Origin: Verrucomicrobiota bacterium
Lineage (GTDB): Bacteria; Verrucomicrobiota; Verrucomicrobiia; Palsa-1439
Assembly (NCBI GenBank): GCA_016871575.1
Contig: VHCW01000006.1
Location: forward strand, 1-64,000
DNA length: 64,000 nt
Reading direction: 5' to 3'
Shown: piece by piece, positions 42,429-54,438 of the stretch
How positions within the stretch are numbered: the first letter of the stretch is position 1
How the letters are laid out: each line of letters begins with the position of its first letter
Notes under the pieces: model-generated
The model's input: only the letters and a program-made list of their open reading frames with translations
What the model was told of the DNA's origin: nothing
Databases searched by the model: none
Program-made: the position numbers and the translations under genes

Positions 42429-43346
42429 TTATGAGGAGCGATTCTTCCACCGGTACGCCGTCTGCGCGTTTTTCCAGAAAACCTTCTCGAGCGCGGCTTG
42501 GCCTTTCTCGGTGAAGAATGTCATCGGAATCTGCTGCACACGATCCAGCGGCGCGAACCGGGCGCTCACGAGCCAGTTGCTGCCGTAGATCAACCGATCA
42601 GCGCCAAATGTCTTCCACAAGAACTCCAGCACAGGGCGGTAATACTCCACGTCTGCCGGGGCGTCGCCGTTGCGGCGCTTGGTGCCCTCGACGAGGCCGG
42701 ACACTTTCATGAACACTTGCGGATGCGCCGCGAGCTTCTTCATCAACTCCCGCCAGTCTTCCGGCGGCGGTTCGCCGTTCACGGTGGCGTTGGCGACGTG
42801 ATTGATGATCAGGCGCAGATTCGGCACAAGCTTTGCGATCCGCTCAGCCTGCGCGACCCATGTCGGCGGCGAGTGCACATCGAAGGACAGGCCGCGCTCG
42901 GCCACGGCGCGCAAACCGGCGATGACGGCGGAGTCTTCCAATGACGCGCTTCGGGTGCGAATGCCGAGGAACAACGGATTGGCGGCGAACCGCTTCAAGT
43001 GTCCCGCAAACTCCGGCGTGCCCAGCGGCAGGTTGCCTACCAGCCCGACGATGAACTTGTCTTGCGCGGCGATGTCGAGAATCCACTGGTTGTCCTCGAC
43101 CCACGGACTGGCCTCGACGACCACCACGCCATCCACTCGCTGCGGCACCGGCAACGCGCGGTAATCTTTCGGCAGCACCGTGCGGTAGAGCAACGCGTCG
43201 TCCTTCGGCGGCCACGGCACGCCTTGCGGACGCGACGGGTCGTAGAAATGAACGTGCGTGTCAATGATCTTTGTCGGCTGTGCCTTCGCGTAACAGGCCG
43301 AGGCGGCGAGACCGGCGGCAGCTTGGAGAAATTGGCGGCGGTTCAT
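42429..43346 (-). CDS. Tat-exported amidohydrolase, sugar-lactonase-like
   Basis: A 305-residue TIM-barrel amidohydrolase of the COG3618 group (L-rhamnono-lactonase/L-fuconolactonase-like). The leader MNRRQFLQAAAGLAASACYA has a twin-arginine motif. Metal-site features are IIDTHVHFYDP at the start, LSFDVHSPP, LRLIINHVAN and LIYGSNWLVS near the end. It would hydrolyse a sugar lactone or related ring outside the cytoplasm. As the last gene of the rhamnogalacturonan-type operon it may act on rhamnono- or galactonolactone; this is inference from context. Confidence 0.75.
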   Translation of the reverse strand: MNRRQFLQAAAGLAASACYAKAQPTKIIDTHVHFYDPSRPQGVPWPPKDDALLYRTVLPKDYRALPVPQRVDGVVVVEASPWVEDNQWILDIAAQDKFIVGLVGNLPLGTPEFAGHLKRFAANPLFLGIRTRSASLEDSAVIAGLRAVAERGLSFDVHSPPTWVAQAERIAKLVPNLRLIINHVANATVNGEPPPEDWRELMKKLAAHPQVFMKVSGLVEGTKRRNGDAPADVEYYRPVLEFLWKTFGADRLIYGSNWLVSARFAPLDRVQQIPMTFFTEKGQAALEKVFWKNAQTAYRWKNRSS

Positions 43347-43372: not shown

Positions 43373-45667
43373 TCATGGCTGTTCCATGCGCGCGATGATG
43401 TCGCGTTGCAATTGCGGGGCAAGCAGTGCGAACTGCGCGGAGTATCCACCCATCCGCACAAGGATGTGCAAGTGTTTCTCCGGTTCTTTCATCGCCTGGC
43501 GCAGTAGGTCCACGTCAACCACGCTGAAATGCACACCCATGCCGCCGTTATGAAAGAAGCCGGCGATGAGACTTTTCAGATTCGCGGTGTCCTGTTTCGC
43601 GCGCGTGGCGGTGTACGGCAATTGAATGTGGGTGAGCGCGCCGCCCGCCTGTTCTTGCCAGTCGAGCTTGGCGACGGAGTTGAGGGCGGCAGTCGGGCCG
43701 TGCCGCTCGGTGCCGGCAGAGGGGCCGAGGCTGATCGAGAGCGCCTGACCGCGCACACGGCCATCGGGCGTGGCTCCCATGTAGTGACCGGCCTTCCATG
43801 CTGTGGAGATTCCCGATCCCGGCACGATGCGTCCGTTGCGGTAATCGCGCAGGTTCAATTCGTCCAGCACGCGTTGGTTCAGTTTCACGATGTCGCGCGC
43901 GAACTGGTCCATTCGATCGTCGTCGTTGCCAAACTTGGGCGCGTTTCGCAGCAGAGCGTGAAGCTGCGCGTGGCCCTCGAAATTGGCCGCCGTGGCGCGG
44001 TTCAATTCCTCCACGCTCGTGCGTTTCTGTTCATAAACGCATCGCTTGATCGCGTAGAGCGAGTTGGCTGCGGTGATGGTGCCCGCCTCGGCGAGGCTGG
44101 AGATGTTGTAACGCGCGCCGCCTTCCGCGATGTCTTTGCCGTCGCGCAAACAGTCATCAAACAGCAGCGACACAAACGGGTGTGGCGTATGACGGGCACT
44201 GCGCTCGTCCCGTTTCTGTTGGCCTTCGATCGCGCGGCGGCTGGCGAGCGACAGGTGGCGCTGGTACGCTTGCAGGAGATCGTCGAAACTGGCCGGGTTC
44301 TCCCGCAATGCGTTCAGGACGCATTGCGCTTGGTTGGTGGTGCCGCAACGACAGACGCCAAATACGCGGCCTGCCGCCGCCAGCTCCTCACAGCCGGCAA
44401 TGGAGTAATCCCATACGTCCTCGCGTCGCACGCCGGCCCGTTCCAAGGCGGGGATACACACGCGGTCGTTGAACAGCGCCGGACGGCCGGAGCCGGTCAA
44501 GATCAGTGCGCCGGCGCGCAACAGAAGTTGCTCCGGCGCGCCAGGATGCCAGCGCAGAGAGAGACTGGGTTGCGTCAATCCTCTCAAGCGGAAGGTCGTC
44601 TCAAGGCAGAGATGCGACAAGTCGTTCGTGGCATCCCGTCCGGCCTGATCCACGCCGCCGATCATCAGGTTCTGGTAATTGATGATATCCACCGCGCAAA
44701 CGCGGACTTCGTTGAATTTGATCCACAGACAGGCCAGCCACTCGGCAGCCTCGTCACGGGTAAGACGCCCGGCAGCGATGTCTTGCTCGTAGGACGGCCA
44801 CATGTATTGGTCGAACCGGCCCGGTGAGATGGACCATTCCGACGAGTTGATGTGCAACAGCACGTGGGTGAACCAGAACGCCTGCAACGCTTCGTGGAAA
44901 TTCTGCGCCGGCTGCGTCGCGGCGTGATCACAAGCCATCGCGATCCGTTGCAACTCTGTCCGACGCGATGGGTCGGGTTCCGCCTGCGCCAGTGTGCGAG
45001 CCGCCTCGGCATGACGATGAGCGAATCGCGACGCCGCCCGACAAACAATTTCCGCCGCCTGATAGAAGTTCTCCTTGGCAACGTCCAACGTCCCGGCCCG
45101 GCGGTGTTTTTCGCGGTTCTGTTTCGCCTCGGCGGCCAGTCCCGAAAAACCCAACCGCAACACCTTCGAATAATCAGCAACAAAATGGCCGGCTGTATCA
45201 CCGTGCGGCATCTTCCGCCAGAACCGCGCGATCTCCTCAGGAATCCGGAACCGTATGTCCTGTTGGTAAACCAAGTCCGACTTCAACACTTGCTCGGCGT
45301 CGTCGCGGTAATTTGTCCAATCATAACTTTCCGGCGCAAAATAGGCGACCCGCGGTTTCGAGGCGATGTTACCCACGATCAATTCACCGGGCTGGATCAA
45401 GATCGGCATTCCATCGGCGACACGATAGAACGCCTTGGCCTTGCGCAGAATGGGCGCCTCACCGGCTGTCTCGCAGTACGATTCAGTCATGAGCCGGGCA
45501 CGCGCAAAACAGATTTCACGTGGCGGCAGGCCGGACACCCCCGCCAACAATCGCGCGACGCGATCATTCTTGTCCTCCGATTTGGCCATCAACGCGGCGG
45601 CCCGAAATATCCCCGACGCAACCAACCCGGTCCCCAGCGACGACTTGATGAACGTGCGGCGGTTCAT
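43373..45667 (-). CDS. Glycyl-radical enzyme (PFL/diol-dehydratase superfamily) with a Tat leader
   Basis: A 764-residue enzyme of the pyruvate-formate-lyase-like superfamily. The thiyl Cys is C426 in SIAGCEEL (C-x-E as in dehydratases such as B12-independent diol dehydratase). The radical site is G741 in VRMGGYSAQF, 23 residues from the C-terminus, as expected. FRLRGLTQPSLSLRWHP and ARYNISSLAEAGTITAANSL are other family blocks. The N-terminus, MNRRTFIKSSLGTGLVASGI, is a canonical Tat signal, which is unexpected for an oxygen-sensitive radical enzyme. No radical-SAM activase is in the window. The start at 45667 overlaps the lyase stop as ATGA. Confidence 0.8.
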   Translation of the reverse strand: MNRRTFIKSSLGTGLVASGIFRAAALMAKSEDKNDRVARLLAGVSGLPPREICFARARLMTESYCETAGEAPILRKAKAFYRVADGMPILIQPGELIVGNIASKPRVAYFAPESYDWTNYRDDAEQVLKSDLVYQQDIRFRIPEEIARFWRKMPHGDTAGHFVADYSKVLRLGFSGLAAEAKQNREKHRRAGTLDVAKENFYQAAEIVCRAASRFAHRHAEAARTLAQAEPDPSRRTELQRIAMACDHAATQPAQNFHEALQAFWFTHVLLHINSSEWSISPGRFDQYMWPSYEQDIAAGRLTRDEAAEWLACLWIKFNEVRVCAVDIINYQNLMIGGVDQAGRDATNDLSHLCLETTFRLRGLTQPSLSLRWHPGAPEQLLLRAGALILTGSGRPALFNDRVCIPALERAGVRREDVWDYSIAGCEELAAAGRVFGVCRCGTTNQAQCVLNALRENPASFDDLLQAYQRHLSLASRRAIEGQQKRDERSARHTPHPFVSLLFDDCLRDGKDIAEGGARYNISSLAEAGTITAANSLYAIKRCVYEQKRTSVEELNRATAANFEGHAQLHALLRNAPKFGNDDDRMDQFARDIVKLNQRVLDELNLRDYRNGRIVPGSGISTAWKAGHYMGATPDGRVRGQALSISLGPSAGTERHGPTAALNSVAKLDWQEQAGGALTHIQLPYTATRAKQDTANLKSLIAGFFHNGGMGVHFSVVDVDLLRQAMKEPEKHLHILVRMGGYSAQFALLAPQLQRDIIARMEQP

Positions 45668-48600
45668 TTTCCCTCCTGTAGTTCGGAAAGTAATCCGATG
45701 AAGTGCGGCGCGACGCGGATGAATTGGGAAAAACTCTTGCCCATGCCGCGCATGTTCTGGATGGCGGGGTCGGTGCCTTTTCGCAGGACGTGCGCCAGCT
45801 TGGCGTCGGGGCGGCCTGCTTTCTGGGTGAGCCGGTAGGCGTAACCGATGCCGTCGAAGAGTAGGAAGTTCGAGAACGGCCCCTTCGACGACACGGGACA
45901 ACTCGTGTAACGGAACCCGCCGATCTCCTCGACCCACAGATCGTCCGCAACGAAGTTCGCTCCCATGATGATGCTCTTGGCGACGCGCGGGTCGCCGGTT
46001 TCGAGGTGATACCACTTCATGCCGGTGAGCAGCACGCCGACCATGAACCCGGCGTTGCCGTAGTGCGCCGGCTCGCACAGGCAATGGCCCGGTACCATCA
46101 TCCGACGCCAGCCGCCGCCTTTGGTGTTGAACTTCGGCTTGGGGGTCTGCCGTTCCAGCACGCGCTCGATCATGATCTTGGCGGCGTTCAGGTAGAACGG
46201 GTCGCCCGTGGCGCGATAGACGGCCATCGTCAGGATCAAGTGCCAGCCGGAGTCGCGGCAGTTGGAGAAGTCGTAGTTGTTGGTGAACCGGTAAATGCCG
46301 TAGTGGTCGGCGATCTTGATGGCGGTCTCGTAGGAGCGACGGTCGCCGGTGAGGAAGTAATGATCCATGTGTCCCTCGCACCACGTGTGCGACACAGTGA
46401 ATCCGCCGCGAGCCGTGCCTTGGTCCTTGCCGGGCAACGGACTTTTCTCAAGGTAATTGCCGACGTGCCCGATGCAGTGGGCATAAACGCAGCCGACACG
46501 TTCGGGTTTCGCGTGGTAATGCACGGTGTCCACGTCGCGGTTGTGGGTCTCGGCTTCGTCGCCCGCCCAGAAGAAACGCAGGTCGCCGCTTCGCGCAAAC
46601 TGGAGAAAGAACGCGTGTTGCGTATCGTACTCGATGTTGCCCCAGTTGATGATCCGCTCGCCCCACCAATCGCCGAAGTTGAACATGCCGTATTGGCGGA
46701 TCTTGTCGCGATCATTCAAATACACACCAAGCGTTTCGCTGACCTTCTTGTCGTAGTCCTTCACCACCGCGCGATTCGGGTCGGCGAGTGTGAGTTCCCC
46801 AAACGCGCCCGAGCCCGCATACCACCGCGGCGGCGCGACGGCCATCAACGTTCGATCCAGCGGCGGCGCGCTGCCATCGAGACCGATCCAGACCTCGTGC
46901 GTCTTGGTCATGCCTTGGCGCATCTTGTAGCCGCCGTTGTCGAACCAGAAATAGAGCTTGTGCCAGTCGTGGTTCTTCTTGTTCAACACATCATACTCGT
47001 CGGCTTTCAACCCCGGCATCAACCAGAATGTTGTGCCATTCGCTCCGACCTCGATGTCCTTCGGATAATTCTGCCAGAAGTCGCGCACGAACATCGCGCC
47101 GACCGGGCCGGTGAAGCGTTCACCGACATCGGTGCGTTGTTTCACGGTTCGTGACGCGCCTTTCAAGTTGGGCAGCCGCCACGCGAGGCTGCGGATTGTC
47201 GTGAACTCGTTGGTGGACTCCGCGTGACCGGTCGTCAACAGCACGCGCGCCCACGGCAAGTCGGGATACACGTGAACTCGCGCTTCCCAAGCAAACTCGC
47301 CGATCTTTCCCGATGCACGCAAACTGCGACGCAATCCGCCGCCGTCTTCCGGCGTCAAACTGGCAATGTTCGTCCTGTGTTCCTTGCCAGCGGCGTCAGC
47401 GAGGACCAACTCGCCGCATGATGGCGTAGCGGCCTCCTGTTTCGGCTCATCGCGCGAAATCTTCGGGCCGAACTCCAGCGTGTAATCAACCGTGCCGCCG
47501 GTATGGCGGAAGTCGAGCAGCAGCCATTTCACGCTGCCGTCGGGCCAGCGAGCCGTGACGGTTGTTTGCAGCGGTCTCCCATCGAGCAGGCGGACGTTGC
47601 GTGCCGAACCGAGCGCGCCCTTTGGGAACGGCACGCCGCCCGTGACCGGCCAATTCTGAACCGGCGATTCGACGCGCAACGGCACACGACCGCTTTGTTT
47701 CGTGCGCGGCTCGACGAACGGCTTCTGTGTCAGCTTGTGCCAGCCGGTGCTGACGTTCGGCGTCGTGATGCGATAACGCGTGGCGTTGTCGGGCAATACC
47801 ACGCGATGGTTTTGCACCGCCAGCGGCTCGGTGATTTTCTGGCCGTCGCCAAGCTCGATGGTGCATTGCGTGGCCCACGATGTGATCCACGTCAGTCGGT
47901 TCCCCGTCGCGGCGATTTCGCGGAACTCGTAGAGCGGCGGGCGCGCCTTCGGTTTCTCGCGCAACAGCACCAAGTCCTCGGTGCGGTAGTTGCCGCTCGT
48001 GGTGAGGGCGCGCAGTTGGATGGCGTCGCCCGGTTTCAACGCGACCGGCTCCGTCAGGAAGAACAGGTGCTGATTGTTGTCGTCGAAATCTGCGACCGCG
48101 ACGCCGCGACGCTGGCCGTTGACGTACACGCCGATTCGCTCGACGCCGGCGCTGTCGTAGAAAATGAAACCGACGTGGAACCTGCCCGACGCGCCCGCCG
48201 GCACAGTGGCGGTGATGGTGCCGGCGCCGGGGCGGCGGAGCGCGTTGTCGGCGCGATACTCGCTGCGGTCGAGGCGGAACCCGTCGAGCTTGCAGTCGCG
48301 AATCCAGATCGGGACGTTTCGCGGATCGTCCATGAGCGCGTTGAGGCGGTCGAGGCCCCACGTTTGTTCGATGCCAACGCTCGCTGTGAGATCGCTGTCG
48401 AGCAGCGCCTTCGGACGTTTGCTGATGGGCGGCCCTTTCGCCTCGAAGTAGCCGGTGCTGTGCACGCCGCGATGCGGTTGGACCGTCTCCGAAAGGATGC
48501 TCAGCCGGAACCGCGACGCGCCGTCGCGCTGCAACAGGTCAACATCGTAGCTGACGAACAGGCTGCCGTTGGTCACGGCGACGCGGGGCGGCGGCGCCGG

Positions 48601-48936
48601 GAGCGTTTTGCCGTCCGTGGTGAACGCGCTGACGCCGGGCGACGCATCGCGGCAGTGGAGCATGAACTCGCAGCCGTGACCGGCGCGGCCGGTGGACGCG
48701 TTGTCGTCGGCGTCGAGATAGAGAATGATGCTGGAGTTCTCGGCCGGATAGGGCGCGAGGAAATCGAGGCGCCAGACGAAACGGTTGCCGCCCTCGTTGG
48801 CCATCGCCACGCGCTTGACCGTGCGCGATGGGTCGGTGGATTTGGTTGCTGCCCGCTCCCAGATGGTGACGAAGTCTTGCGCCGGTGATGACACAAGTCC
48901 GAGCAGCAGCAGCGTCGGACACAAAAATGTTTTCAT
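45664..48936 (-). CDS. PcRGLX/YetA-like rhamnogalacturonan exolyase-type protein
   Basis: A 1090-residue secreted protein. The signal peptide is MKTFLCPTLLLLGLVSSPA. Residues ~20-400 form beta-rich domains, the first like a DOMON/CBM9 sandwich (YLDADDNASTGRAGHGCEFM), another like a jelly roll. From about 415 the PcRGLX/YetA pattern appears: WPVTGGVPFPKGALG, LQTTVTARWPDGSVKWLLLDF, then FWQNYPKDIEV and the (alpha/alpha) barrel with HTWCEGHMDHYFLTGD and NAAKIMIERVLE. Fungal PcRGLX (PL26) cleaves rhamnogalacturonan I from its end. Location between GH106 and the radical enzyme, with ATGA overlaps on both sides, supports pectin-backbone degradation. Confidence 0.75.
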   Translation of the reverse strand: MKTFLCPTLLLLGLVSSPAQDFVTIWERAATKSTDPSRTVKRVAMANEGGNRFVWRLDFLAPYPAENSSIILYLDADDNASTGRAGHGCEFMLHCRDASPGVSAFTTDGKTLPAPPPRVAVTNGSLFVSYDVDLLQRDGASRFRLSILSETVQPHRGVHSTGYFEAKGPPISKRPKALLDSDLTASVGIEQTWGLDRLNALMDDPRNVPIWIRDCKLDGFRLDRSEYRADNALRRPGAGTITATVPAGASGRFHVGFIFYDSAGVERIGVYVNGQRRGVAVADFDDNNQHLFFLTEPVALKPGDAIQLRALTTSGNYRTEDLVLLREKPKARPPLYEFREIAATGNRLTWITSWATQCTIELGDGQKITEPLAVQNHRVVLPDNATRYRITTPNVSTGWHKLTQKPFVEPRTKQSGRVPLRVESPVQNWPVTGGVPFPKGALGSARNVRLLDGRPLQTTVTARWPDGSVKWLLLDFRHTGGTVDYTLEFGPKISRDEPKQEAATPSCGELVLADAAGKEHRTNIASLTPEDGGGLRRSLRASGKIGEFAWEARVHVYPDLPWARVLLTTGHAESTNEFTTIRSLAWRLPNLKGASRTVKQRTDVGERFTGPVGAMFVRDFWQNYPKDIEVGANGTTFWLMPGLKADEYDVLNKKNHDWHKLYFWFDNGGYKMRQGMTKTHEVWIGLDGSAPPLDRTLMAVAPPRWYAGSGAFGELTLADPNRAVVKDYDKKVSETLGVYLNDRDKIRQYGMFNFGDWWGERIINWGNIEYDTQHAFFLQFARSGDLRFFWAGDEAETHNRDVDTVHYHAKPERVGCVYAHCIGHVGNYLEKSPLPGKDQGTARGGFTVSHTWCEGHMDHYFLTGDRRSYETAIKIADHYGIYRFTNNYDFSNCRDSGWHLILTMAVYRATGDPFYLNAAKIMIERVLERQTPKPKFNTKGGGWRRMMVPGHCLCEPAHYGNAGFMVGVLLTGMKWYHLETGDPRVAKSIIMGANFVADDLWVEEIGGFRYTSCPVSSKGPFSNFLLFDGIGYAYRLTQKAGRPDAKLAHVLRKGTDPAIQNMRGMGKSFSQFIRVAPHFIGLLSELQEGK

Positions 48937-51680
48937 GGGGTTCCGAAACGTTTCGGCGCAAACTCCAGACGCACCGGGCCGAGCAGGCCGGAGGGCATGA
49001 GCGGGTCCTCGGAGGCGAATCCTTGGAATGCCCGGAACGTGCGCGGGCCGGTTTGCAGGCCGACGTTGGTCTTGGTGGTGCGCTTGCGCGGCGGCAACGC
49101 GGCATCGCCGATCAGGCGGTTGACCCAGGTGTTGACGACGAGAATCTCCAGGTCGTTGCGGCCCGGTTTGACCGCGCCGGTCAGTTCGATCTCCCACGGG
49201 GCGGTCCAGACGACGCCGAGGTCTTTGCCGTTGAGCCGGACCTGCGCGATGTGGTTGACTTCGCCGAGCTGAAGGCGGACAGACTCGTCCGCTTGCGCGT
49301 CGGTCAATTCGAAGGTGTTCCGGTAGGTTGCCGCGCCGGAGAAATACTTGATGAACGGGTCGGGATGTTGGTCCCAGCGGGTCAATTCCTTGAAGACAAC
49401 GGATTTGGAGTCGAACCGGACCGTCCACGGGCCGGTGACGACGAGTTGCGACGGCGGCGGCGGCGGCGCGCTTTGGCGCGGCAGGTCGAAGGTGCGGAAC
49501 ACGACGAACACCGAGCCGTTCTCCGGCAACGTTAGGCTGACGGTTGTCCGTTTGTCGTACGTGCCGCGCCAACTGGCCGCGGTGCTCCGGCGGCCCGTGA
49601 CGGGGTCCCAGAGTTCGGGCCGCCGGTCATTCACGCGGAACGTGCAGTCGGCTGTTCCCTTGCCGGAAACGAAATAGATGTCGGTCGTGCCATCCTGACG
49701 GTGGGCGTACTCAAACGGGCCTTCGCAATCGGGCAGGATGTTCTTGGCCGTCATCGCTTCCGCGAGGCTCGACGGTTTTGCCCAGAGCGAGTCGGCGAGT
49801 TTTTTCACTTCCTTGTCGGATTCCGGCGAGCGGCTGGTCGTGCGTTGCGGTTTGCGTTTGCCGAGCACGACGGGCACGCCGGAACTTCGCAGGCTGGCGA
49901 TTCGTTGGAGCGCCGACAACGAAATAACTTCTTCGTCGAGGTCCACAATCATCATCCGGTAGGCGACGCCTTCCGGCAGCACGAAGTTTCCGCCGCTGAC
50001 GTTCAAGCGGCTGGTGAGCACCTCCGTGGTCAGCAGGTCATAATTGAAACCCGGGGGCAACCGCAGCGTGGCGCGTTCGCTCCAATTCGTGCCGCGTCCC
50101 CAATGCTGGTACGGCTTGCTGCCGATATAGACGCAGACGTCGTTGACGGGCAATCCTTGGCGCAACATGAACTGGCAGCGGCCAAGGTAATCGAGAAACG
50201 GCCGCGCCTGCGGGAACCAGGTGACGTTTGGGTTGATGTGGGTGCCGGCGAAATACTCGATGCCCGGCTTGCCGAACGACGCCGGCGAAGCGGTGAACGT
50301 GTGCCAGATGAAATGGTTGACGCCATCGCAGAACGCGCCGTCGGCAAACGGTTTCAGCGCGGCGGGATAGGCGGACCAGTGTTGGATCATGTGCGTGAAC
50401 GCCTCGGTCGCCGCGAGCGGTCTGCCGTAGATGTGCGCGGCCATCGCCGGCGGACGGTTCATGTCGCGCCGGCGCGTGTTCGATGCGCCGGTGAACCAGA
50501 ACTCGCCTTGCGGCATGTCGGTGCGGCCGAGGAAGGCAAGTTGGTCGGCCTCGGCGAACGCGACGAGCTTGCGGTTCCACGGGCCGCCGGACTCGGCGTG
50601 CCATTTCAAGCCGGCTTCGTTGCACAGCGACTGCAGTTTGCCGTAAAAATTGTCGCGGAAACAATCACCCAGCGCCCGGTAATAGTCGGACAGGAAACGT
50701 TCTGATTCCTCCGGATTCCTGACGGTAAACCCCGCCAGCACCGGCAACCAGGACCGCAGCGAATAACCGCGGCGTTTGGCAAACTCCTGATCAAATTCGC
50801 GCGTCCACGTCGGGATCGCTCCCTCCCAACTGACACTGTAAAAATGCGTCAGCGTTTTGCCGGCGAGCGGCCCGACGTCTTGCATGATGGCCTTGCCCAT
50901 TCGTTCAAAGTGTCGCCCGACCGCTTCCGGGTCGAGCACATCCACGTCATGTTCGGTGACACACTGTCCGGCATGGGCGGGATCGCCTTCCATCGTCGTG
51001 TAGCCGAACCGCAGCAACGTCCAGCGCCCTTTCGGCACGTCCCACACGAGCTTGCCTTGTTTGTCCACCTTGCTGGCGAGGTCCACGACCTCGGTCACGG
51101 CGGGCTGGGCGCCGGACTTCGGCGCAATCTCCTGCCATTGGTCGGCGAACTTCGCCGCGGAAACATCGTGGCGCACGGCAACGACGCCGACATCCCAAAA
51201 CCGTTTCCCCTCCGGTTTTTTCAACTGGAAGGTAAATTTCGGCCCGCGAATTTCCATGGCCGTCCAGACGAGTTTTTTCGGCAGGTCATCGCCGACTGCC
51301 CACGGGCCTTTCAGCGCCCCGGCGCAACTGCTGAGGTTGACGCTGACCTCCAAGCCGAGCCGCCCGGCCTCGGTGATCATGAACTTCACCAGACGCCGCC
51401 ATTCCGCGCTCATGAATTCCATCTTGGCCGGCGGCGCCGGCACGTGGGTGACGTCGTCGTGGTAGCCGCGCGCGTCGAACATCAACATGCCGCCGAAGCC
51501 GGCCTGTTTCATCGCTTCGAGGTCGCGCGTGATGGTGCGCTCATCCACGTGGCCGTTGAGCCACCAGTAGTAGGCCCACGGCTTGGCCGAGTCGGGCACG
51601 TTGCGGAAACCGTGCTCCAAGTTGATGGCGGCTGCCGTCGCCATGGCAGCGGTCAAAAGAAAAAAGATCAATCGCTTCAT
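48933..51680 (-). CDS. GH106 family alpha-L-rhamnosidase
   Basis: A 915-residue exported enzyme (signal MKRLIFFLLTAAMATAAA). The family start is AYYWWLNGHVDERTITRDLEAMKQAGFGGM, a TIM-barrel opening. Later blocks are FYSVSWEGAIPTW, LKWHAESGGPWN, HFIWHTFTASP and the C-terminal galactose-binding-like domain (VRLNGKDLGVVWTAPWEIELT, VVNTWVNRLIGD). GH106 enzymes remove terminal alpha-L-rhamnose, here probably from rhamnogalacturonan. It is the first gene of the leftward operon, with TATTAT 9 nt before the ATG. Confidence 0.85.
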   Translation of the reverse strand: MKRLIFFLLTAAMATAAAINLEHGFRNVPDSAKPWAYYWWLNGHVDERTITRDLEAMKQAGFGGMLMFDARGYHDDVTHVPAPPAKMEFMSAEWRRLVKFMITEAGRLGLEVSVNLSSCAGALKGPWAVGDDLPKKLVWTAMEIRGPKFTFQLKKPEGKRFWDVGVVAVRHDVSAAKFADQWQEIAPKSGAQPAVTEVVDLASKVDKQGKLVWDVPKGRWTLLRFGYTTMEGDPAHAGQCVTEHDVDVLDPEAVGRHFERMGKAIMQDVGPLAGKTLTHFYSVSWEGAIPTWTREFDQEFAKRRGYSLRSWLPVLAGFTVRNPEESERFLSDYYRALGDCFRDNFYGKLQSLCNEAGLKWHAESGGPWNRKLVAFAEADQLAFLGRTDMPQGEFWFTGASNTRRRDMNRPPAMAAHIYGRPLAATEAFTHMIQHWSAYPAALKPFADGAFCDGVNHFIWHTFTASPASFGKPGIEYFAGTHINPNVTWFPQARPFLDYLGRCQFMLRQGLPVNDVCVYIGSKPYQHWGRGTNWSERATLRLPPGFNYDLLTTEVLTSRLNVSGGNFVLPEGVAYRMMIVDLDEEVISLSALQRIASLRSSGVPVVLGKRKPQRTTSRSPESDKEVKKLADSLWAKPSSLAEAMTAKNILPDCEGPFEYAHRQDGTTDIYFVSGKGTADCTFRVNDRRPELWDPVTGRRSTAASWRGTYDKRTTVSLTLPENGSVFVVFRTFDLPRQSAPPPPPSQLVVTGPWTVRFDSKSVVFKELTRWDQHPDPFIKYFSGAATYRNTFELTDAQADESVRLQLGEVNHIAQVRLNGKDLGVVWTAPWEIELTGAVKPGRNDLEILVVNTWVNRLIGDAALPPRKRTTKTNVGLQTGPRTFRAFQGFASEDPLMPSGLLGPVRLEFAPKRFGTP

Positions 51681-52362: not shown

Positions 52363-52578
52363 AGTCAAGCCTCGCCTCCGTCACACTTGAATGGAAAGGC
52401 GCGTTTGCAGTAACGCACGCAGTCCCGCGTCGTTTCGGGACGGAGTGCGGTTCGTTGGGGTGGACCGACCTCCCGCATACGCCACTTCGCTTCGCTGCGT
52501 GGCTTACTACGAACCACTAATCGTAATTCGCAACCTTTTTCTGTCCGCCGGCGTCTGGTGCTGGTAAGGTCGCGTTTC

Positions 52579-54438
52579 ATGAAAATTCGTTTGCTGCTGT
52601 TTGCCGGTTTGATGGTGTTGGCGCTTGGTTCGCAGGCTGTCGGCGCCGACGATAAAGTCACGGCCCGGTTGCGCGCGTTGTTCGCGCAGTTCGATGCCAA
52701 CCGCGACGGCGTGTTGTCACCCGACGAACAGATCATCATCCTCGAAGTGGTCAACCTGAGTTTCGGCGAACGATGGGGGGAACAGGTCGCCCAGTTGTTC
52801 AAGGCAGCGGCATCAGCCGACGGCTCGATCAGCGAGGCGGGCTGGAAACAACAGGTCGAGGCTCTCGCCAAACAAGTCGTCTCGTCGAAACGCACTTTCC
52901 GCGTCGCCATGCGCGACGGCGTGAAACTGGCCACCGATGTCTATCTGCCGCCGGGCGAAGGGCCGTTTCCGGTTATCTTGGCGCGGACGCCGTACGGTCG
53001 CTCAGGACGCGGCATCAGCGGCGTGGAACTCGTGCAGGAAGGGATTGCGGTGGTCGTGCAGGACATGCGGGGACGATTCGATTCGGAAGGCGAAAACCTG
53101 CCGTTTATCGGTTGTGGCTGGGGCGAACATCAGGACGGCGTGGACACGGTGGCGTGGCTGCGTCAACAGCCGTGGTGCAACGGCACGATCGGCACCGTCG
53201 GCGGTTCCGCCGGCGGCATCACGCAAAATCTTCTCGCCGGCGCAACCACCAACGGCGTCGTCGCACAATACATCGCCGTCGCTGCGGCCAGCCTCTACCA
53301 CGATGCCGCCTACACCGGCGGCGCGTTTCGGAAGGCCGATGTTGAGAACTGGACGACCAGCAACAAATTCGATCCCAAGGCGCTGCTGTTGATGCGCGAA
53401 CGTCCGGGCTACGACGATTACTGGCGGCAATTCGACTCGACCTTGAAATTCGCCACGATGACGGCGCCGGCCGTCCACGTCGGCGGATGGTTCGACATGT
53501 TTGCGCAGGGGACGATTGACGAGTTTGTCGGACGCCACTATCACGGCGGCCCCGGCGCGCGCGGCCGGCAGCAATTGGTGATGGGACCGTGGGAACACGG
53601 CGTCGGCAAGCCAAAGGCCGGCGAACTGACCTTTCCCAACAGCCGCATCCCGAAAAACTACGATGTGACGCGATGGTTCGAGTTTTTCCTGCTGGGGCGC
53701 GACAACGGCGTCTTGAAACAACCCGCCGTCGCCTACTACGTCATGGGCGACACCGCAACGCCCGGCGCCCCGGGCAACGAGTGGCGGTTCGTCAACGACT
53801 GGCCCGTGCCGGCCGCTGACACGCCGTATTATTTCCAGCGCGGCGGCAAACTATCGCCGGCGAAACCGACAACGACCACCGCAAACACCGTGACTTACAC
53901 ATTTGATCCAGCCAACCCGTGCCCGACCATCGGCGGCGGCAACCTGACCATCCCGCGCGGCCCGCGCAACCAGAACCCGATTGAATCGCGTCCTGACGTG
54001 GTGATGTTCACGAGCGAGCCGTTGAGCGAGCCGGTCGAGGTGACCGGGCGCGTGAAAGCGAAAGTGTTTGTCTCGTCATCGGCGGTTGACACCGACTTGT
54101 CAGTCCGTCTCTGCGACGTGTATCCTGACGGCAAAAGTTATCTGATGGCCGAGGGGATGTTGCGATTGCGGCACCGGAAGTCGTTCGAGAAACCTGAACT
54201 GCTCACGCCGGGCAAAATCGAGGAAGTCACCGTGGATTGTTGGTCCACGAGCATCATTTTCAACAAAGGCCACCGCATTCGCGTCACCGTGACATCGAGC
54301 AACTATCCGCGGTTCGACGTGAACCCCGGCACCGGCAAACCGTGGACGGACACCGGCGAGCGCGTCCGCCAGACCAACAAGATTCACTGCGACGTCGCCC
54401 GCCCATCCTGTGTGCTCCTGCCAATTCCCAAGCCCTGA
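52579..54438 (+). CDS. EF-hand-containing CocE/NonD-type exported hydrolase
   Basis: A 619-residue exported alpha/beta hydrolase of the X-Pro dipeptidyl-peptidase/CocE group. The signal (MKIRLLLFAGLMVLALGSQAVGA) precedes an EF-hand pair at about 30-95; the first loop is good (DANRDGVLSPDE), the second degenerate (SADGSISEAG). The catalytic domain has LARTPYGRSGRG, VVVQDMRGRFDSEG and S210 in VGGSAGGI. The C-terminal jelly roll has FTSEPLSEPVEVTG and GHRIRVTVTSSNYPRFDVNPGTG. It probably cleaves an ester or Xaa-Pro peptide; the substrate is unknown. The 216 bp before it hold no gene. Confidence 0.8.
   Translation: MKIRLLLFAGLMVLALGSQAVGADDKVTARLRALFAQFDANRDGVLSPDEQIIILEVVNLSFGERWGEQVAQLFKAAASADGSISEAGWKQQVEALAKQVVSSKRTFRVAMRDGVKLATDVYLPPGEGPFPVILARTPYGRSGRGISGVELVQEGIAVVVQDMRGRFDSEGENLPFIGCGWGEHQDGVDTVAWLRQQPWCNGTIGTVGGSAGGITQNLLAGATTNGVVAQYIAVAAASLYHDAAYTGGAFRKADVENWTTSNKFDPKALLLMRERPGYDDYWRQFDSTLKFATMTAPAVHVGGWFDMFAQGTIDEFVGRHYHGGPGARGRQQLVMGPWEHGVGKPKAGELTFPNSRIPKNYDVTRWFEFFLLGRDNGVLKQPAVAYYVMGDTATPGAPGNEWRFVNDWPVPAADTPYYFQRGGKLSPAKPTTTTANTVTYTFDPANPCPTIGGGNLTIPRGPRNQNPIESRPDVVMFTSEPLSEPVEVTGRVKAKVFVSSSAVDTDLSVRLCDVYPDGKSYLMAEGMLRLRHRKSFEKPELLTPGKIEEVTVDCWSTSIIFNKGHRIRVTVTSSNYPRFDVNPGTGKPWTDTGERVRQTNKIHCDVARPSCVLLPIPKP

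Follow-up and report, generated by a model that had tools for sequence, protein, structure and literature searches.

Glycyl radical enzymes (GREs) are regarded as cytoplasmic or microcompartment enzymes. The GRE eliminases regain the radical at each turnover and work without ATP, NAD(P)H or any further diffusible cofactor; the GRE activase needs SAM and a reductant and therefore acts in the cytoplasm. The Tat system moves proteins in the folded state, and Tat-exported cofactor enzymes, such as the periplasmic glucose-fructose oxidoreductase and molybdoenzymes, are folded and loaded in the cytoplasm and then handed to Tat. GREs are extremely oxygen-sensitive and are charged by a partner activase (IslA paper, PMC6386719).

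Here we analyzed a stretch of 64,000 nucleotides from a Verrucomicrobiota bacterium (hereafter the window), which encodes a GRE with a Tat-type leader. Among proteins of solved structure, the B12-independent glycerol/1,2-propanediol dehydratases (1r8w, 5i2g, 9rco) are the closest to the window GRE in sequence (E 5.5e-129) and have the GHxxxDY, CxE and Gly loops in common with it; one of them, the B12-independent glycerol dehydratase 1r8w, is also the nearest solved structure (fold TM 0.89). In contrast to the window GRE, these dehydratases lack a Tat leader and possess H281, D447 and the LYPSS tyrosine. The PflD/YbiW sugar-type GRE dehydratases (8id0, 8id7, 8yjo) share the GRE fold (TM 0.86-0.88), but they are only 28-31% identical to the window GRE, and their substrates are phosphorylated and hence cytoplasmic. 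We know of no export signal in PflD/YbiW. Their structures were solved with 1,5-anhydro-hexitol phosphates, so that the GRE family can reach sugar substrates. As for the Tat-exported cofactor enzymes, the load proposed for the window GRE is a protein-backbone radical and not a bound cofactor. No exported GRE is reported in the open-licence literature searched, mostly titles and the beginnings of abstracts.

The GRE gene and its leader

The GRE gene is located on the minus strand at 43373..45667 (ATG at 45665-45667, stop TGA at 43373-43375) and encodes a protein of 764 aa; the initial annotation had placed it exactly there, giving no strand. The PFL-like (PF02901, 499 bits) and Gly_radical (PF01228, 76.5 bits) domains of Pfam are both matched far over the cut-off. 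The AlphaFold2 model has a pLDDT of 87.5 and a pTM of 0.90, and residues 1-31 are disordered in it.

The twin-arginine leader that had been claimed for this protein is present as MNRRTFIKSSLGTGLVASGIFRAAALMA (residues 1-28; 45584..45667, minus strand), recognized by reading from its twin-arginine motif and hydrophobic core. The Pfam TAT_signal profile (PF10518) matches it with an E value of 0.0012 and 19.1 bits, short of the curated threshold of 22.7, and NCBIfam TIGR01409 gave no match to the leader. A Shine-Dalgarno sequence, AGGAGGG (45671..45677, minus strand), lies three bases upstream of the ATG, so that Tat motif, hydrophobic core and a start codon with a ribosome site are all present. 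No perfect AxA stands right before the mature start; AAA (residues 23-25) and LMA (residues 26-28) are both possible cleavage sites. Relatives with 30-39% identity to the window GRE are leaderless and start near residue 30; the leader has thus been added to an otherwise normal GRE N-terminus. Judged from these sequence features, it is very probably a functional Tat leader.

Organization of the operon

The GRE gene lies in a tight operon on the minus strand together with three other genes. The first encodes a GH106 alpha-L-rhamnosidase family protein (48933..51680; 915 aa; PF17132, 453.6 bits) with a Sec-type signal. It is followed by a gene for a PcRGLX-like protein (45664..48936; 1090 aa) with the Sec-type signal MKTFLCPTLLLLGLVSSPAQ. 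The last encodes an amidohydrolase/lactonase-like protein (42429..43346; 305 aa; PF04909, 136.9 bits), whose Tat-type leader MNRRQFLQAAAGLAASACYAKA is similar to the GRE leader and scores 20.2 bits with PF10518, under the cut-off; this protein also shows a weak match to L-fucono-1,5-lactonase, below the cut-off. ATGA overlaps couple the GH106, PcRGLX-like and GRE genes in this order. The overlap between the GRE gene and its upstream neighbour, already seen in the initial annotation, is real (stop of the PcRGLX-like gene at 45664-45666, start of the GRE gene at 45665-45667), and the amidohydrolase gene begins 26 bases after the GRE gene. All four proteins of the operon carry signal peptides (Sec, Sec, Tat and Tat, the Sec ones identified by eye). 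Neither a cytoplasmic catabolic gene nor a GRE activase gene was found in the operon.

The upstream neighbour had been described as a PcRGLX-like lyase. Of the N-terminal RIFT and C-terminal toroid domains that define PcRGLX, the first (PF19501) is indeed matched over the cut-off, but the second (PF21346) falls just below it, and the protein is only weakly PcRGLX-like; the designation "pectin-type operon" has this weak match and the GH106 protein as its basis. The neighbour genes suggest that the window GRE has a part in the chemistry of rhamnose or uronates. As its substrate class we tentatively propose a sugar or sugar acid of a rhamnose-containing polysaccharide.

Active site and fold

The codons of the putative thiyl-radical cysteine C426 (44390..44392) and of the glycyl-radical site G741 (43445..43447), both on the minus strand, were located by computing their positions. 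Both residues, as named in the initial annotation, are correct: C426 (in IAGCEEL, the GCEE motif) and G741 (in VRMGGYSAQF) occupy invariant columns in a 32-sequence alignment of the window GRE and its relatives. E428, the glutamate of the CxE motif, is also kept. The loop around G741, RMGGYS, is rarely seen in this form, but RIGGYS, RVGGFS and RVGGYS are present among other GREs.

A comparison of the active site with diol dehydratases had been suggested, and it was made against 1r8w by a phmmer alignment. The loops are kept and the pocket is changed. The window GRE retains the His of GHxxxDY (H161), S279, C426, E428 and G741; it has W278 in place of H281 and R440 in place of D447, and it lacks the LYPSS tyrosine. 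H281 and D447 are the diol-binding residues of the glycerol dehydratase. In addition, the NCBIfam PFL2-3 subfamily model (TIGR01774) scores 527.4 bits on the window GRE, below its cut-off of 678.2. With W278, R440 and the missing tyrosine, the window GRE is of the eliminase type but has a remodelled pocket, and it is neither a glycerol nor a propanediol dehydratase.

Phylogenetic distribution of the leader

A survey of GREs covered sampled genomes of Verrucomicrobiota, Planctomycetota and Armatimonadota as well as 80 loci retrieved by a pattern scan across GTDB; it gave 160 different GRE frames in which the radical loop is intact. Ten of the 160 have a strict Tat motif following a start codon, and all ten belong to two clades, which is more than expected by chance. 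These motifs are confined to the window gene and to a second clade, which we call family B; the lineage of the window GRE is called family A. In the phylogenetic tree, family B (12 rows) and the pair formed by the window GRE and its relative in genome G966 appear as two fully supported clades, with an SH-aLRT of 98 between them; the program flags long branches. Since the two clades stand apart, two gains of the leader are the simplest account, and the Tat leader probably arose twice in GREs of Verrucomicrobiota. A single shared origin in both lineages was rejected on the same grounds, although the long branches urge caution.

In the case of family A, neither the GTDB pattern scan nor the samples of Planctomycetota and Armatimonadota contained an orthologue above about 41% identity. 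The G966 protein is the only relative at 51% identity, and its N-terminus is cut at a contig end; the sampled genomes gave no family-A orthologue whose N-terminus could be read. The G966 GRE has a leaderless activase directly behind it and keeps both radical loops, as does the window GRE. It shares AGCEE and the pocket arginine with the latter, suggesting that the remodelled pocket is a family trait.

In the case of family B, the N-terminus can be read in ten members (G012, G845, G960, G972, G954, G956, G962, G974, G215 and G968), and each of them has an [ST]RRxF leader; the leader is unreadable in G975, in G884 and in the copy from the window's own genome. Conservation of the leader, which the initial annotation had proposed to survey, thus holds for every readable member of family B. 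Synonymous codons of the twin arginines differ among the members, and TIGR01409 scores over the cut-off in five of the nine leaders tested. Most leaders end in AxA-like sequences (ALA, ADA, AEA) before QTPNADM or similar, and in most members the stretch from the leader to the first internal Met is conserved (QTPNADMAALR and similar). In G962 and G974, no ATG occurs between leader and enzyme, which together with the conserved stretch argues against internal initiation. In G968 (L265 / L342, G968:C6), an in-frame TAG splits the GRE gene, reflecting either a broken gene or a sequencing error.

A leaderless activase lies within 250 bases of the family-B GRE in six clusters (G012, G845, G962, G974, G215 and G884) and about 4.3 kb from it in G956; none was found in the locus DNA examined for G960, G972 and G954. 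In G845 and G012, a sulfatase gene comes first, the Tat-GRE gene second and that of the leaderless activase third; a divergent unit encodes GntR, Gfo/Idh/MocA, ROK kinase, TIM-barrel isomerase and DeoC aldolase, and parts of this set also occur in G972, G954, G956, G960, G974, G215 and G884. Family B therefore resembles the window GRE in having a Tat leader on an intact GRE, mostly with a leaderless activase nearby and in several cases adjoining an exported sulfatase; it differs in its identity of about 30%, its separate clade, and its GntR/Gfo/TIM-barrel/DeoC setting in place of GH106/PcRGLX. For family B, we propose that the sulfatase and the GRE work on the outside and the DeoC route within the cell, which would fit a dehydration to a deoxysugar that is then imported, phosphorylated and cleaved.

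Related genes in the same genome

The genome from which the window derives encodes TatC (190.8 bits). The search of this genome for an activase, also proposed initially, yielded one canonical, leaderless TIGR02494 protein over the cut-off (L122 2043-2948, plus strand; G000:C77), the sole canonical activase found there, which lies away from both GREs of the genome. It resembles the family-B activases and may not be the one that serves the window GRE. Its gene sits behind that of an apparently Sec-exported Gfo/Idh/MocA-like protein. The second GRE of the genome (L119, G000:C202:1-3576), on a 3.6-kb contig, is 81% identical to the Tat-GRE of G012 and belongs to family B; the end of the contig cuts off its N-terminus. 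A heme-copper oxidase, the only oxidase class sought, had no match in the genome, which fits an oxygen-sensitive enzyme.

Proposed export of the GRE with its radical

Export of the window GRE is well supported by sequence. We propose that the enzyme would fold in the cytoplasm, where a leaderless radical-SAM activase would install the radical on G741, and that the Tat translocase would then take the folded, charged GRE across the inner membrane. In the periplasm, it would serve as an eliminase alongside the exported products of its operon, namely the glycosidase, the PcRGLX-like enzyme and, itself a Tat substrate, the lactonase-like enzyme; it would act on a sugar or sugar acid derived from a polysaccharide that contains rhamnose. 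Because GRE eliminases regain the radical and require no diffusible cofactor, an enzyme charged once could go on working outside. That the window GRE leaves the cytoplasm with its radical in place is, in our estimate, an even chance; translocation, a radical outside the inner membrane and periplasmic catalysis are inferred. The odds appear equally balanced for the wider proposal, namely that GREs which receive their backbone radical in the cytoplasm, cross the membrane in folded form through Tat and perform radical eliminations in the periplasm have at least two origins in Verrucomicrobiota.

The leader might also be unused, either inert or bypassed by a start at M27, leaving a cytoplasmic GRE that acts on imported products of the exported enzymes. 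This is unlikely. The leaderless relatives and the scores of the window leader under the Tat profile cut-offs would fit it; however, tatttcgggccgccgcgttg, the stretch just before the internal ATG (codon 27), contains no Shine-Dalgarno sequence, whereas that before M1 is strong. The initial annotation had regarded homologues starting after about residue 30, combined with an internal start here, as speaking against an exported GRE; such homologues do exist, but the internal start is improbable for the reason just given. The operon consists of exported proteins only, and the family-B leaders, including those of G962 and G974, also weigh against an unused leader.

Two readings had originally been offered for an exported GRE, charging before folded export and a radical-free relative with a new role. 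The GRE fold might indeed be exported without a radical and serve a binding, structural or non-radical enzymatic function outside. Exporting the enzyme uncharged would be the simplest way of avoiding radical loss, and the window operon has no activase. However, C426, E428, G741 and both loops are kept in the window GRE and in G966, and activases stand beside the G966 GRE and at the six family-B clusters. These observations favour charging before export and make the radical-free reading improbable, to about the same degree as an unused leader.

Slightly less probable still is that the leader stays uncleaved and anchors the charged GRE on the outer face of the inner membrane, so that it is not free in the periplasm. 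The lack of a perfect AxA directly before the mature start would be consistent with such a tether, but most family-B leaders have AxA-like ends. An assembly artefact that joined the leader of another gene to the GRE is very improbable: the assembly comprises 257 contigs and probably derives from a metagenome, but the contig of the window measures 87 kb, contamination is 0.87%, the frame, Shine-Dalgarno sequence and ATGA coupling are mutually consistent, and the same design occurs in ten other assemblies. A microcompartment-targeting peptide is improbable, given the Tat motif and the exported neighbours.

The two separate groups of Tat-GREs suggest that there are bacteria in which a radical enzyme is charged within the cell and put to use beyond the inner membrane. 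If this is true, a conserved class of Tat-exported GREs would shift radical chemistry to the cell envelope, and a protein radical would survive translocation. Polysaccharide breakdown would also include an extra step, one that present annotation would put in the wrong compartment.

Other gene features

Two further Verrucomicrobiota loci, L183 (4144-6996, plus strand) and L179 (minus strand, 938-aa frame), from the genomes G147 and G064, each contain one frame with an N-terminal alpha/beta-hydrolase and a full GRE, an apparent hydrolase-GRE fusion; the hydrolase domain of L183 matches PF12146 over the cut-off and has a GSMGGTSA elbow. The RR matches in both frames lie inside the fused hydrolase domain and were rejected as leaders. 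In the window, a CocE/NonD-type peptidase S15 protein (52558-54438, plus strand) has an EF-hand-like N-terminal stretch (PF13202, below the cut-off).
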